Shown here: in pieces, positions 6,734-12,037 of the stretch
How positions within the stretch are numbered: position 1 is the first letter of the stretch
How the letters are laid out: the number at the start of each line of letters is the position of its first letter
From: Candidatus Aminicenantota bacterium
Lineage (GTDB): Bacteria; Acidobacteriota; Aminicenantia; Aminicenantales; Saccharicenantaceae
DNA length: 34,498 bases
Reading direction: 5' to 3'
Assembly: GCA_002877915.1 (NCBI GenBank)
Contig: PNJE01000166.1
Coordinates: 1-34,498, forward strand
Position numbers and translations under genes: made by a program
The notes under the pieces: model-generated
What the model saw: only the letters and a program-made list of their open reading frames with translations
Told to the model about the DNA's origin: nothing
Database searches by the model: none

Positions 6734-7234
6734 TATTTGAAACTGACGGCTACTGAGACCATTTTTTAGTAAGCCAAGGCAGAAATCAAAGAGAAAAGCG
6801 AATCTAACTGAATCATCTGGCTTTTATCCTAAATTTTTAAGCCACTCAGATTTTCCCTTCCAAATTTATTGGGAAAGCGTTTTTTCGGTTTCGTGGCTGA
6901 CGGGTAATCCACTATAAAGCCAAATGGTCAAAAATAATTGTCATCCGGTGAGCTTAGCAGCAACAACTTTTGACTATTTTTAAAATTCTTTTAAGACTTT
7001 GAAGATATTTTTCAAAAATTTTTTTAAAATAAACTTTCCTTGTTCTGAGATTATTTCTCTCTTCTCCTATCCGATTTTAGTTCTGCTATTCATCTATTAT
7101 TCTTAAGAGTGAGACAAATATCTGTCTTTTTCAGTCTCTATTAATGATGTTTAAAACTAAACCGGTTTCTCAGCTGTCCGAAGCGGCTCAGTTGGCATCT
7201 TTTTTGCTCAATTTCTTGGTGAAGGGAGGTTAAC

Positions 7235-7459
7235 ATGAAAAGAGCTATCGCTCTCACCTTGCTAACACTTATTATCCTATCATCTTTCCTGCTTATCCCG
7301 GCCGCTTCTCAGTCTACCAATCCAGCTGATTCCTGCTGGAACAACTGGGAAAGGTGCAAAGCCCGAGCCCTGGCGTCTGATATGGGAGTAATCAAGACGA
7401 CCCTGGCTTTAACGCTTTGCGACATTGCACTTGGTAATTGCTTGATGAAAGCGGTCTGA
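7235..7459 (+). CDS. Small secreted peptide precursor with twin CX6C motif (74 aa)
   Basis: GGGAGG Shine-Dalgarno just upstream; N-terminal hydrophobic signal MKRAIALTLLTLIILSSFLLIPAASQS; mature region CWNNWERC-X20-CDIALGNC. Confidence 0.75.
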   Translation: MKRAIALTLLTLIILSSFLLIPAASQSTNPADSCWNNWERCKARALASDMGVIKTTLALTLCDIALGNCLMKAV

Positions 7460-7466
7460 GAAACCG

Positions 7467-7503
7467 GGGAGTTCTGGCTATTTAGCCAGGACTCCCTTCT
7501 TTC
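7467..7503 (+). terminator. Strong hairpin (13-bp stem with one G:U pair, 4-nt loop) followed by TTCTTTC; possible leaky terminator
   Basis: GGGAGTTCTGGCT-ATTT-AGCCAGGACTCCC starting 8 nt after the peptide stop codon. Confidence 0.7.
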
Positions 7504-7527
7504 AAATATCGCTGGAAAGGAGATTAA

Positions 7528-7821
7528 ATGCCGAAAGCAGCCGCCTTGAGGAGCGACCTAATTTTTGTTTCAGGCTCTTTCTGGAGATGGGAAATTAAAG
7601 GCCATTTGTCCGGTCAAAAAAGGCTGCCGTTTTCTTACCAGCTTAAATTTCGGAGCAAGCCAGATGAGCCTGCTATCGCCCCCCCACAAGTAACCTTGAT
7701 AAGATTAATGTCCGCGGAACAATTAAAAATAAGAAAACCTCGAGGCGCAGCCCTCCATCTTGAGCCTGAGATTCTTAATTTTAAAAAGCAATTTAAAGGA
7801 GGTCTAAACTATGAATCGTAA
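7528..7821 (+). CDS. Hypothetical protein, 97 aa
   Basis: AAGGAG 7-8 nt upstream of ATG; fills the gap between hairpin and propeller gene and overlaps the propeller start by 11 nt. No recognisable domain; could be spurious. Confidence 0.4.
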   Translation: MPKAAALRSDLIFVSGSFWRWEIKGHLSGQKRLPFSYQLKFRSKPDEPAIAPPQVTLIRLMSAEQLKIRKPRGAALHLEPEILNFKKQFKGGLNYES

Positions 7822-8785
7822 GTTTAAAGCAACTCTTTTCTTCATCCTTTTGTCGGTTTTCATTTATTCAGAGGCAGCCCAGATAAAAATTTTAGCCGTA
7901 AAGGAAATTCCTTTAAAAAATCCTGAAGCTCGTCCATTCTTTTTTAAGCCAACAGTTATCATTTCTGCTCATCAAGACCTGTTCATTGCTGAATCCGGTG
8001 ATAATAGAATTCGGGTTTACGATAGCCAGGGTGAGCCAAAATATACCATCGGGAAAAAAGGCCAGGGACCGAATGAGTTTGATAATTTAATCGGTCTGGA
8101 TATCCTTGGGGACCGCATTTACGCCGCTGATTCTTTCAATAACATGATAAAAATATTCAGCCAGGATGGTAAATATCTGGGTGGCTTTAAAACCCCCTTT
8201 AAACCTATTTATGTGGCCGTTTTAAGCCAGGATAAAATCCTGGTTACCAACCGACCTTTGCCTTTGAAACCTGAGAAAATGGTTTTTTGCTTTAATTCCA
8301 GAGGTGAGCTCCAATGGAAAGCAATTGATCCGGTTCCGGCCAAAGATCAAATTTTTTACACTCTAATCAACGAGATCATGCTGAAAAAAGACGAGGTTGG
8401 CCATGCTTATATAATCTGGAAGTACCAAAATAAATATATTCTGAAAATAGATGGCCACGGCCAGGTGATTGAAAAAATAGGACTTGACCAGAACTATCCG
8501 GTTAAATCAATCAATCTGCCGCTTAAAGAAGAAAAGAAAATTATAACCTCTGTCTGCTGGAACTGGGCTCTTTCTGATAACAAATTTTACCTTATTCCAC
8601 CTGTCTATACCGAGGATGGAGATATAGGACCGGGGAAAGACATCATGGTAATAAATGATAGAGGAAGCATTTCTGCTTTTATCAAGTTGCCTCAGGCTCT
8701 GCGGCTGCTAACTGTAAATAAAAATATTATTTATGGTATCGACACAGACGATGAGCTCCACATTTATCAACTGGAGGATAAATGA
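7811..8785 (+). CDS. Secreted 6-bladed beta-propeller (NHL-like) protein
   Basis: Signal peptide; repeated blades (IAESGDNRIRVYDSQGEPKYTIGKKGQGPNEFDNLIGLDILGDRIYAADSFNNMIKIFSQDGKYLGGF); AAGGAGG RBS. Confidence 0.85.
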   Translation: MNRKFKATLFFILLSVFIYSEAAQIKILAVKEIPLKNPEARPFFFKPTVIISAHQDLFIAESGDNRIRVYDSQGEPKYTIGKKGQGPNEFDNLIGLDILGDRIYAADSFNNMIKIFSQDGKYLGGFKTPFKPIYVAVLSQDKILVTNRPLPLKPEKMVFCFNSRGELQWKAIDPVPAKDQIFYTLINEIMLKKDEVGHAYIIWKYQNKYILKIDGHGQVIEKIGLDQNYPVKSINLPLKEEKKIITSVCWNWALSDNKFYLIPPVYTEDGDIGPGKDIMVINDRGSISAFIKLPQALRLLTVNKNIIYGIDTDDELHIYQLEDK

Positions 8786-9240
8786 AAAAGATATTTTTTA
8801 TATTTAGGAAATTAATTTTCGCCCTGATGATTATCTGGCCCGGCCTCTCACCAGCCATTTTCTCAGCCCAGGCCCTGACCTTTGATCAGACAGCTCTCAA
8901 TTCAATCCAAAAGGTTCCGGTCAAAATATATTCATCCCTGGAGGAAATTACCAGAGGCTCGGGCCAGTCGGTTTTGCTGGTTTTTTTCTCTCTGAGCTGC
9001 CAGGTCTGCTGGGATGAATTATTTGAAATGAAAGAATTTATTGAAAAATTCAGCCTGCCTGTGATAATAATTGGCGTATCGGCAGATGAGAGAGAAGAAC
9101 TTCAGGCCTTTGCGTCCAGATATTCATTCCCTTACCCTATCCTCCAGGACAAGGATAAAAAGCTTTATCGCCAATTCAGGGTCCGGCTCGCGCCCTTGAT
9201 TATCAAACCAGGAGAGATAAAGCTAAGCAATGTTTATTGA
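8782..9240 (+). CDS. TlpA/redoxin-like thioredoxin-fold protein, exported or membrane-anchored
   Basis: N-terminal hydrophobic segment; VLLVFFSLSCQVCWDEL (CxxC), VIIIGVSADEREELQAFASRYSFPYPILQDKDKKLYRQFRV; ATGA overlap with the upstream gene. Confidence 0.8.
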   Translation: MKKIFFIFRKLIFALMIIWPGLSPAIFSAQALTFDQTALNSIQKVPVKIYSSLEEITRGSGQSVLLVFFSLSCQVCWDELFEMKEFIEKFSLPVIIIGVSADEREELQAFASRYSFPYPILQDKDKKLYRQFRVRLAPLIIKPGEIKLSNVY

Positions 9241-9964
9241 ATCTCAGTTCCAAATGAATTTCTTTTTAGTTAAGAAAAAATTATTAAGGAGCAAAAATGC
9301 TCTTTTTATAAGCGCCTTGCCCTTAGTGGCGGTTCTTTATGTCCTCCTGGCTGACTCTCTGAATACTGCCTTAAAGTTTTTTCTTTTTCTCTTCCCCTAC
9401 CTTTTTCTGTTTTTCTCTGGCGATATGATGAAAGATGAAATTGATAGCGGAATTCTGGAAAATGTCATTTTTCTGGAGGATCGGTATCGCCATTACCTTT
9501 TCCAAAAAAATTTTATTCTGTTTGTCCTGGCCTTTTTATTTTCCGCCTCGATTTTTTTCTCCCTGACTATAGCCAGCCTATTACCGGGAACGTTCAAATG
9601 GTTCTATCTCTTCCAGTTTTTGGCCGGAACAATAATCGGAGCTTACTATATCGCCCTCAGCGGGTGGTTGAGCTTTTATTTTCGAGGAGGTGCAAATATA
9701 ATCATTGTAATCGTAGGACAGATCACCGCCATCGTATCCTTATTCTTCTCAATGCAGGAGAGAACTGGCTTTTTATATTATTTAGAAAAAGGAGAATTTC
9801 CCAACCTGATAGCTAAAATCAAATTGAGCCTTTTGGTTCTGATTATTCCCAATTTTTTAATTACCAAAAATTTATCAAGTTATCTATTTCTGGCGATTCT
9901 GGGAGCTGGTTTATTCTTATTCCTCCAGTGGCATACAATTAAAAACCTGGAGTTAAAAAAATAA
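9230..9964 (+). CDS. ABC-2-type transporter permease-like membrane protein
   Basis: About 6 hydrophobic segments; DMMKDEIDSGILENVIFLEDRY resembles ABC-2 permease loops; directly followed by an ABC ATPase. Confidence 0.75.
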   Translation: MFIESQFQMNFFLVKKKLLRSKNALFISALPLVAVLYVLLADSLNTALKFFLFLFPYLFLFFSGDMMKDEIDSGILENVIFLEDRYRHYLFQKNFILFVLAFLFSASIFFSLTIASLLPGTFKWFYLFQFLAGTIIGAYYIALSGWLSFYFRGGANIIIVIVGQITAIVSLFFSMQERTGFLYYLEKGEFPNLIAKIKLSLLVLIIPNFLITKNLSSYLFLAILGAGLFLFLQWHTIKNLELKK

Positions 9965-10671
9965 TGGGTGAAAATCTTATCGAGTCATTCAATCTGTCTA
10001 AAAATTACGGACAAATCCAGGCCCTCAAAGAGGTCTGCTTTTCCATTAAAAAGGGAACTATTACTGCCTTTCTGGGAGAAAACGGAGCCGGCAAAACAAC
10101 TACGATAAAAATTATTCTTGGCTTCTTGAAGCCAGATTCCGGAATAGTGAAAAAAGGAAACGCTCGAATCGGTTATGTACCTGACCGTCCCCTTTTTTTC
10201 CCCTGGGCTACAGGAGAAGAGATTCTCGAAGTTACGGCCAAGCTTTTTAGAATTGATCTTTTCAGATTGCCGGGTTTAATAGAAAATACCAGTGCCCGTA
10301 TTGGATTTGATCAAGCTCTTCTGAATAGAAAAGCTCAGACTTATTCCATGGGGAACCAGAAAAAGATGTCTTACCTGCAAAATCTCCTCATCAAGCCGGA
10401 ACTTTTAGTTGTGGATGAACCTTTCACCGGTCTTGATCCCATCTCAATCAGACTGGTCCGGGACCTTTTCTTAGAGCTAAAAAAAGAAGGAAAGACCATC
10501 TTTCTGAGTTCGCATTTAATATCCGAGCTGGAAAAAATCTGTGAGGAAGTAATAATTATAAGAAAAGGACAGGTTCTCCTTGAAGATAATCTGAAGAAGA
10601 TAAGACAAACCACCAATTCCGACCTGGAAACTATATTTCTATCACTTCACCAGAAGTTACTAACCGGATGA
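9964..10671 (+). CDS. ABC transporter ATP-binding protein
   Basis: Walker A GENGAGKTT, degenerate signature YSMGNQKKM, Walker B LLVVDEPFTGLDP, H-loop LSSHL. Confidence 0.95.
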   Translation: MGENLIESFNLSKNYGQIQALKEVCFSIKKGTITAFLGENGAGKTTTIKIILGFLKPDSGIVKKGNARIGYVPDRPLFFPWATGEEILEVTAKLFRIDLFRLPGLIENTSARIGFDQALLNRKAQTYSMGNQKKMSYLQNLLIKPELLVVDEPFTGLDPISIRLVRDLFLELKKEGKTIFLSSHLISELEKICEEVIIIRKGQVLLEDNLKKIRQTTNSDLETIFLSLHQKLLTG

Positions 10672-10774
10672 AAAATTCTTTTAGCCTTGTTTCCGTTTTG
10701 ATAAAAAGCTGGCTAACTTGCTGAGCTATTATTTGCTTAGTTGGATGAAATCTCGAAAGAAATTTATAAACTGA
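10668..10774 (+). pseudogene. Possible decayed start of a second ABC permease gene
   Basis: ATGA-coupled start after the ATPase: MKNSFSLVSVLIKSWLTC*; a frame change continues NLLSYYLLSWMKSRKKFIN*. Not in the ORF track. Confidence 0.35.
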
Positions 10775-11054
10775 ATTATAATTTGTTTTTAGAGATCTGA
10801 TCAATTCAAGATTTCTCAACTGCCCCGGGGAATTTAATAAACCAGATTTTCCTCCACCCGGCCGACCATTGAGCAAGTAATTTTATCCATTTGGCCGCTT
10901 GAGACGGCAACCAAAATCACTATCATCCATGGCAATTTTCCTCTGAAAATCAAAAAACTTTTTGCCTCCCCCTCCAGATTATTTTAAAATTAAATTGATC
11001 GATGGTTACCATAAACAGCTGGTTAAAACCCCATTGATTTTAATAGGAGGGTTA

Positions 11055-12037
11055 ATGGCTGATTTCGAGCTGAAGCAACTTCTTCCCCTTTATGGTGAAA
11101 TTGGCATCTTGAAATACGGAGGAACGCTGAACTTTAATCGGCTGGAAAAGTTAATGGAACCGGTTCGCCTTGGACAGGAAGAGTTTACCTTAAAACATCT
11201 GGAGATTCTTACCCAGGACCCCCTTTCCCCAGCCTGGTGGAAACTTCCAGAATTGAATCAAGCAGAAATCGAACCTTTAAAATGGGCTTTCAAATTTCTT
11301 CAGCCGCGAGAAGAAACGGTCATTCAAAAAGCCTTTGCCTTGTTTAAAAATATTGAGGTCCTCTCCTGTTTGTTAAGAGTAATTTGTCCGAGATATTACG
11401 GCATTTACAGTGCTCCGGTGGAAATCTCTTATCTATAAAAGCTGAAACTCCGATAAAAAAATACCTTGAATATCTTGATAACCTGACCGAGCTTCAGGAA
11501 ATCTATGCCTTTGACCGAATCGCTGATGTGGATATGGCTCTATGGACCCTGGCCTGCCTGTTAAATGAAGAATATTTATGGAAAAAGCCGGAATATTATC
11601 AAATCATCGATAGTTATATAAATCAATCTAATCCTGTAAAAAAAATCTCTGCCCGCAATGCTCTCCGGGACATTCGGAAGACAAATTTAATTTACCTTGA
11701 TTTGTCTGAATGCTTTATCGATACCGACCCAGAAATTGCCGGTATTTTGGCTGGCAAAGAGCTGGAATGCCTGATTGACCGGCTTTTTATCAAGGTCCAG
11801 AGTGGGCCTAAAATCTATCTCCCGGTAAAAATGCCAGAAAAGCTGGCTGAGTTGGTCAGGAAAAAAGTCTTGACCGATCAGCTAAAGGATGAAATTGGCA
11901 GTTTCTGGGAAACGAGAAATAGCGCTGTCCACTGGGACCTATCGTCGGCTAATGATTGGAAACTTAAAGATTTGAAGAAAAGAGTTGGCGAGATGATTAC
12001 CGGAATCCGGAAATTGAAAGAAAGATTCGGAAGCTGA
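11055..12037 (+). pseudogene. Single gene of unknown function split by a frameshift near 11430-11445; C-terminal HEPN-like RX4H motif
   Basis: ORFs 10962-11438 and 11384-12037 overlap in different frames and join plausibly as ...YYGIYSAPVEISYL/IKAETPIKKYLEYL...; ATG 11055 follows AGGAGG; RNSAVHW near the C-terminus. Confidence 0.65.

Follow-up and report, generated by a model that had tools for sequence, protein, structure and literature searches.

A secreted twin-CX6C peptide and its beta-propeller partner at a conserved, sigma54-type locus of Candidatus Saccharicenans and other Acidobacteriota

Organization of the locus

We analysed a locus for a small secreted peptide and its putative partner proteins on contig C5 (34,498 nt, here called the window) of a metagenome-assembled genome of Candidatus Saccharicenans (Aminicenantes; genome size 2.55 Mb). 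The module spans positions 7193–10671, and all of its elements lie on the forward strand. It begins with a near-perfect sigma54-type promoter (TGGCATCTTTTTTGCT, 7193–7208), which starts 42 nt 5′ of the start codon of the peptide gene, PEP (7235–7459). In agreement with the initial annotation of this DNA, PEP encodes a 74-aa precursor with a signal-like N-terminus and four cysteines (Cys34, Cys41, Cys62 and Cys69); the mature peptide, approximately 7310–7456, carries the pattern CX6C...CX6C and is predicted to form a two-helix hairpin. Between PEP and the propeller gene lies a strong RNA hairpin (7466–7497, z = −6.06 against dinucleotide shuffles), a candidate attenuator or stabiliser that the same annotation had also recognized. 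The promoter and the conservation of this hairpin had been overlooked or under-used there. Four genes follow: PROP (7811–8785) for a secreted 6-bladed beta-propeller, TLPA (8782–9240) for a TlpA/AhpC-TSA-like thiol-redox protein with a CxxC motif and a C-terminus that is out of frame here, PERM (9230–9964) for an ABC-2 type permease, and ATP (9964–10671) for an ABC ATPase. Their reported tight packing was confirmed, with overlaps of 4 nt (PROP/TLPA), 11 nt (TLPA/PERM) and 1 nt (PERM/ATP).

An open reading frame (ORF) of 97 aa (7528–7821, forward strand), formerly counted as part of the locus, was rejected as a gene because it has no relatives, either as protein or as DNA, among 20 other genomes and because the PEP–PROP gap is unusually long, 351 nt in the window, whereas at the majority of other loci the two genes are separated by about 15–95 nt or overlap slightly. 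This spacer is found only in the window's genome. No element belonging to the locus was found at 10671–10774, and an Rfam scan of the window gave no match.

A family of peptides with two CX6C motifs

Of 40 genomes searched, one of them the window's own, 30 gave a match to PEP at E ≤ 0.1, the better matches having far lower E-values. Across 45 aligned mature sequences, which share the pattern C-X6-C...loop...C-X6-C, the four cysteines are the sole invariant positions. The AlphaFold model of the mature peptide, built from the alignment, consists of helices at residues 5–22 and 27–48 that form a two-helix hairpin (mean pLDDT 91.9). Since the cysteines occupy positions i and i+7 on each predicted helix, nested disulfides C1–C4 and C2–C3 (C34–C69 and C41–C62) would fit their placement. 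The signal peptides were assigned by eye as Sec-type. In a comparison of ten genus members the mean identity of the mature peptide was 66%, versus 46% for PROP and 52% for TLPA, and dN/dS values for the mature peptide of mostly 0.1–0.3 indicated purifying selection.

The window peptide belongs to no family in Pfam, NCBIfam or PHROGs, and the peptide profile had no match in the PDB. Foldseek with the peptide model returned nothing beyond weak matches to helical hairpins (E > 2), the plasmid search gave no match, and we found no paper describing the peptide system. As judged from sequence comparison, the system appears to be real, conserved and, as far as these tools show, undescribed; its mechanism we infer.

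Additional, orphan copies of the peptide gene were observed in several genomes. At L028:8604-10462 an orphan twin-CX6C peptide gene with a sigma54 site is divergent from a VKOR-thioredoxin gene, and L031 has the same arrangement. The orphan at L034:3108-7100, as likewise in L026, is flanked by M14 carboxypeptidase-like and nitrilase-like genes, and a variant that keeps two of the four cysteines (L051:7160-10804) lies 3′ of genes for a TonB-dependent receptor and a 348-aa unknown protein. The peptides of L199–L201 contain extra cysteines; one or two follow directly on the first CX6C, and one more lies close to the C-terminus.

Conservation of the gene neighbourhood

Loci were mapped by profile and BLAST searches; those of the window's type were designated type 1 and a second kind type 2. 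PEP lies directly 5′ of PROP in about 28 type-1 loci across the order and in about 11 type-2 loci, usually with TLPA next. Two more modules are present in the genome of the window, one on contig C80, where the contig end cuts the module before the peptide, and one of type 2 on contig C169. Within the genus the locus is always found at a single chromosomal position, next to M29 and OPT genes. A peptide gene not conserved next to the propeller, TlpA and ABC genes had been named in the initial annotation as evidence that would speak against its proposal; what we found was that PEP is conserved beside propeller, TlpA-like and ABC genes over several families.

The arrangement is also found outside the class. 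A second group of Acidobacteriota (L111, L142–L146 and L152) encodes a homologous twin-CX6C peptide, with a sigma54 activator gene (assigned by profile for L111 alone) on one side and genes for a propeller-like protein, a permease and an ATPase on the other (L144 ends inside the propeller gene); TLPA is absent from these loci. Another lineage, L198, has the order PEP-PROP-PERM-ATP, and in a further one, L199–L201, PEP is directly followed by PROP, with no adjoining ABC gene seen on these short contigs. The propeller matches in L199–L201 range from E = 1e-35 to 1e-41. Because TLPA and the ABC pair are each dispensable, peptide and propeller make up the constant core of the system, to which the other two are often added.

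Downstream of the module, the ORFs of 158 and 217 aa at 10962–12037 of the window are a single gene split by a frameshift near 11423. Relatives of this gene are intact, for example at L034:8740-9729 (329 aa), and have no Pfam family.

Promoter and hairpin of the peptide gene

A site resembling TGGCAY-N5-TTGCW was found 41–47 nt 5′ of 24 of the 26 leading type-1 peptide genes, and sigma54-type sites also precede 7 of 8 orphan copies (at 39–49 nt) and 10 of 11 type-2 genes (at 52–68 nt). The exact sigma54 pattern occurs at 17 sites in the 2.55-Mb genome and the reversed control pattern at none. This genome contains rpoN and about eight strong matches to the sigma54 activator domain. Several of the 17 perfect sites (L153–L169) are located 5′ of genes for carboxypeptidase-regulatory/TonB-like, pilin-like and other exported proteins, and for 3 of the 17 a sigma54 activator gene is no more than about 1.3 kb away. 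A search for a shared enhancer motif 5′ of the promoters brought out nothing but A/T-rich words and words common to near-identical loci; GTGAC-like half-sites are visible upstream of the promoters in a few loci.

The hairpin 3′ of the last peptide gene before PROP was detected in 25 of 27 type-1 loci (z ≤ −2) and in 6 of the 7 second-group loci; among 80 other pairs of co-directional genes in the same loci, 7 had one. L198 likewise has a hairpin between PEP and PROP. No such structure follows the first of tandem peptide copies within the genus or most orphans. A hairpin in this position suggests that the peptide may be made in excess over its partners.

The propeller, the thiol-redox protein and the ABC pair

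PROP matched PF17170 (DUF5128 6-bladed propellers) with E = 3e-9 and 36.8 bits, above the gathering cut-off of 22.9, which places it in this family and bears out the original assignment as a 6-bladed beta-propeller. Profile homology of PROP extends across classes (E = 9e-6). For TLPA, the proposed CxxC thioredoxin-fold identity was upheld by an AhpC/TSA-TlpA-like match (E = 2e-15), although the frame as annotated is damaged in the window. The TLPA homologue of L041 also has an altered C-terminus, and the ATPase gene of that locus is split.

The transporter genes had been correctly described as an ABC-2-like permease and an ABC ATPase. PERM has no Pfam match; its AlphaFold model (pLDDT 82) is nearest to NosY and PmtCD-type ABC-2 permeases, the best fold matches being NosY chains with a TM-score of about 0.64. 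The 235-aa ATP protein matched the Pfam ABC ATPase family (E = 1e-19) and resembles ABCA-type, NosF and DrrA-type proteins. Of 396 genomes sampled from the phylum, 11 gave a match to the PERM profile, and every one of these 11 has the peptide. In type-2 loci PERM and ATP are mostly fused, and the N-terminal part of the fused protein matched the PERM profile with E-values of 1e-12 to 1e-8 in the cases scored. PERM and ATP are present in outgroup families and in the window and have been lost in many Saccharicenans, which keep PEP, PROP and TLPA with no detectable permease. This loss, together with the Sec-type signals of the peptides, rules out the ABC pair as an obligate exporter, and the earlier suggestion that it exports the peptide was not supported.

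A different kind of peptide cluster was observed in a genome of the same genus (L113:4508-12657). It encodes a 60-aa Cys-rich ORF, two radical-SAM proteins nearest to the CcpM type and the grasp-with-SPASM type, a sigma54 activator, a fused permease-ATPase and propeller of related kind, and a truncated ABC exporter gene; L113 has no twin-CX6C peptide. The statement that no radical-SAM gene is visible thus holds for the window locus but not for the related transporter and propeller, whose presence in this cluster suggests that the pair is tied to peptides in general.

Comparison with described systems

Glycocins (the sublancin and glycocin F family) contain two CX6C motifs in a helix-loop-helix and are accompanied by dedicated thiol-redox proteins and an ABC transporter. 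Their disulfides are nested and their transporter is of the C39 type (PMC12457901). The window peptide shares with them the twin CX6C in two helices. It differs in that no SunS/GccA-type glycosyltransferase was found among the labelled genes of type-1 modules (a GT2 gene occurs only after some type-2 copies), in that the 235-aa ATPase has no C39 domain, and in its Sec-type signal, where glycocins have a double-glycine-type leader; the propeller partner and the sigma54 promoter are features of the window system. Membership therefore fails on the glycosyltransferase, the C39-peptidase ABC transporter and the leader.

NVEALA peptides of Bacteroidota are short secreted Cys peptides encoded beside genes for 6-bladed propellers, and in this the window peptide resembles them. 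The cysteine pattern is different, PF14055 matches neither the peptide nor the genome, and no paper with the name NVEALA was found. Radical-SAM, lanthipeptide and YcaO classes of ribosomally synthesized and post-translationally modified peptides (RiPPs) were rejected, as no maturase gene was recognized next to the precursor in the loci examined and radical SAM occurs only in L113.

Similarities to transporter-containing loci are of a more general kind. PmtCD/LanFEG/DrrAB-type ABC-2 transporters have the same type of ATPase and permease, with small peptides as cargo or threat, but the window match is below all curated cut-offs shown and the transporter is optional here. The NosDFY complex for copper-site assembly has an ABC-2 permease, NosY, to which the PERM fold is nearest, and a periplasmic repeat protein; this protein is the beta-helix NosD, whereas a propeller is found here, and membership was rejected, with NosD, NosL and nosZ not labelled among the typed neighbours and no N2O reductase recognized. 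In lactococcin 972-type loci a Sec-exported peptide is followed by a membrane protein and an ATPase. This order is similar, but the window peptide has no Pfam match and the propeller and TLPA are extra. In outline, then, the system resembles bacteriocin or peptide-signal loci, and its peptide is like glycocins in cysteine spacing, but the features that define glycocins, NVEALA peptides or the known classes of RiPPs are lacking.

Proposed mechanism and alternatives

The reading that we place first, at somewhat less than an even chance, is a sigma54-controlled operon that encodes an alpha-helical hairpin peptide, exported by Sec and stapled by disulfides, together with its dedicated partners. 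The comparison shows the order of sigma54 site, peptide, hairpin and propeller, the invariant twin CX6C and the PEP–PROP core; we infer the individual steps. RNA polymerase with RpoN would fire the operon, and the hairpin would stop or trim most transcripts, so that the peptide exceeds its partner proteins. The peptide would leave by Sec, its signal sequence would be removed, and the two nested disulfides would form in the periplasm with the help of the TlpA-like protein. The propeller may then bind the folded peptide as receptor, carrier or shield, and the ABC-2 pair, where present, would clear peptide from the inner membrane in a PmtCD/LanFEG-like role, not export it. Action of the TlpA-like protein on the cysteines had been proposed before; the invariant cysteines, the usually adjacent thiol-redox gene and the orphan peptide copies beside a VKOR-DsbA-type gene support oxidation, while the absence of TLPA from distant loci does not.

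Several observations weigh against this reading. The other genes behind the sigma54 sites of the genome mostly encode exported proteins, so the regulation is not specific to the peptide system. Most type-2 loci lack the hairpin directly 3′ of the peptide, and in several loci the hairpins have no clear U-run, which makes termination uncertain. In the window the usual C-terminal segment of TLPA is readable in another frame (9195–9254), and intact relatives, such as the complete operons of L045 and L049, are therefore preferable for experiments. Single-sequence and profile comparisons of type-1 and distant-group permeases gave no detectable homology, and the ABC part may thus be convergent.

An alternative that we regard as unlikely is that the locus is bacteriocin-like, the disulfide hairpin being an antimicrobial peptide and the ABC-2 pair and propeller giving self-protection. 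A small Cys peptide with a tandem second peptide (a two-peptide look) and hairpin-attenuated partner genes would suit such a locus, the ATPase and permease resemble peptide-protection and phenol-soluble modulin (PSM)-export transporters in profile and fold, and the weak fold matches of the hairpin include disulfide-stapled plant hairpin peptides and neurotoxin B-IV. However, several genomes lack the ABC pair, no plasmid match was obtained, and within the genus the locus keeps its single place next to M29 and OPT neighbours, unlike patchy, mobile bacteriocin loci. Of the three module proteins compared, the mature peptide shows the highest conservation, and it is subject to purifying selection; for this reason we consider a signalling or envelope-acting peptide that has a core physiological role more likely than a classic bacteriocin.

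Slightly less probable is a NosDFY-like assembly, in which permease and ATPase would drive a periplasmic propeller that takes the position of NosD, and the peptide with its four cysteines would serve a metal or thiol cofactor target as a small chaperone or as a substrate. The NosY-like fold of PERM, NosF among the ATPase matches and the joint occurrence of a periplasmic repeat protein, a thiol-redox protein and an ABC-2 pair are consistent with this reading, but the match is at the level of fold class with none at E < 0.001, the ABC pair is dispensable, no NosL/NosZ-like gene was recognized in the locus, and an i,i+7 spacing of the cysteines on two helices is better suited to disulfides than to a metal site. 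That the precursor belongs to an unrecognized RiPP class and is modified by an unlinked maturase seems improbable: in genome G003 a related ABC/propeller pair shares a radical-SAM cluster with a Cys-rich ORF, but the signal is Sec-type and not a leader, and no maturase gene was recognized in the peptide loci examined. An assortment of adjacent, unrelated genes with no functional system, to which the damaged TLPA frame, the long spacer and the spurious 97-aa ORF of the window copy might point, is highly improbable and already contradicted by gene order, promoter and hairpin conserved across families and beyond the class.

Significance

Aminicenantes and most Acidobacteriota are uncultured, and hardly any peptide systems have been described from these bacteria. 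With its invariant cysteines, a promoter class of its own and a propeller partner that stays constant across distant lineages of the phylum, the peptide family offers a directly testable entry. If the propeller is the receptor, a function would be gained for part of the large and mostly unassigned family of DUF5128-type 6-bladed propellers. More tentatively than for the operon itself, we propose a phylum-wide, sigma54-controlled peptide-receptor system of Acidobacteriota, in which exported disulfide-stapled hairpin peptides may have diversified in each genome, with a cognate beta-propeller to read every one of them and ABC-2 and thiol-redox modules added according to the lineage. If true, this would be a communication or envelope-control system new to these bacteria.

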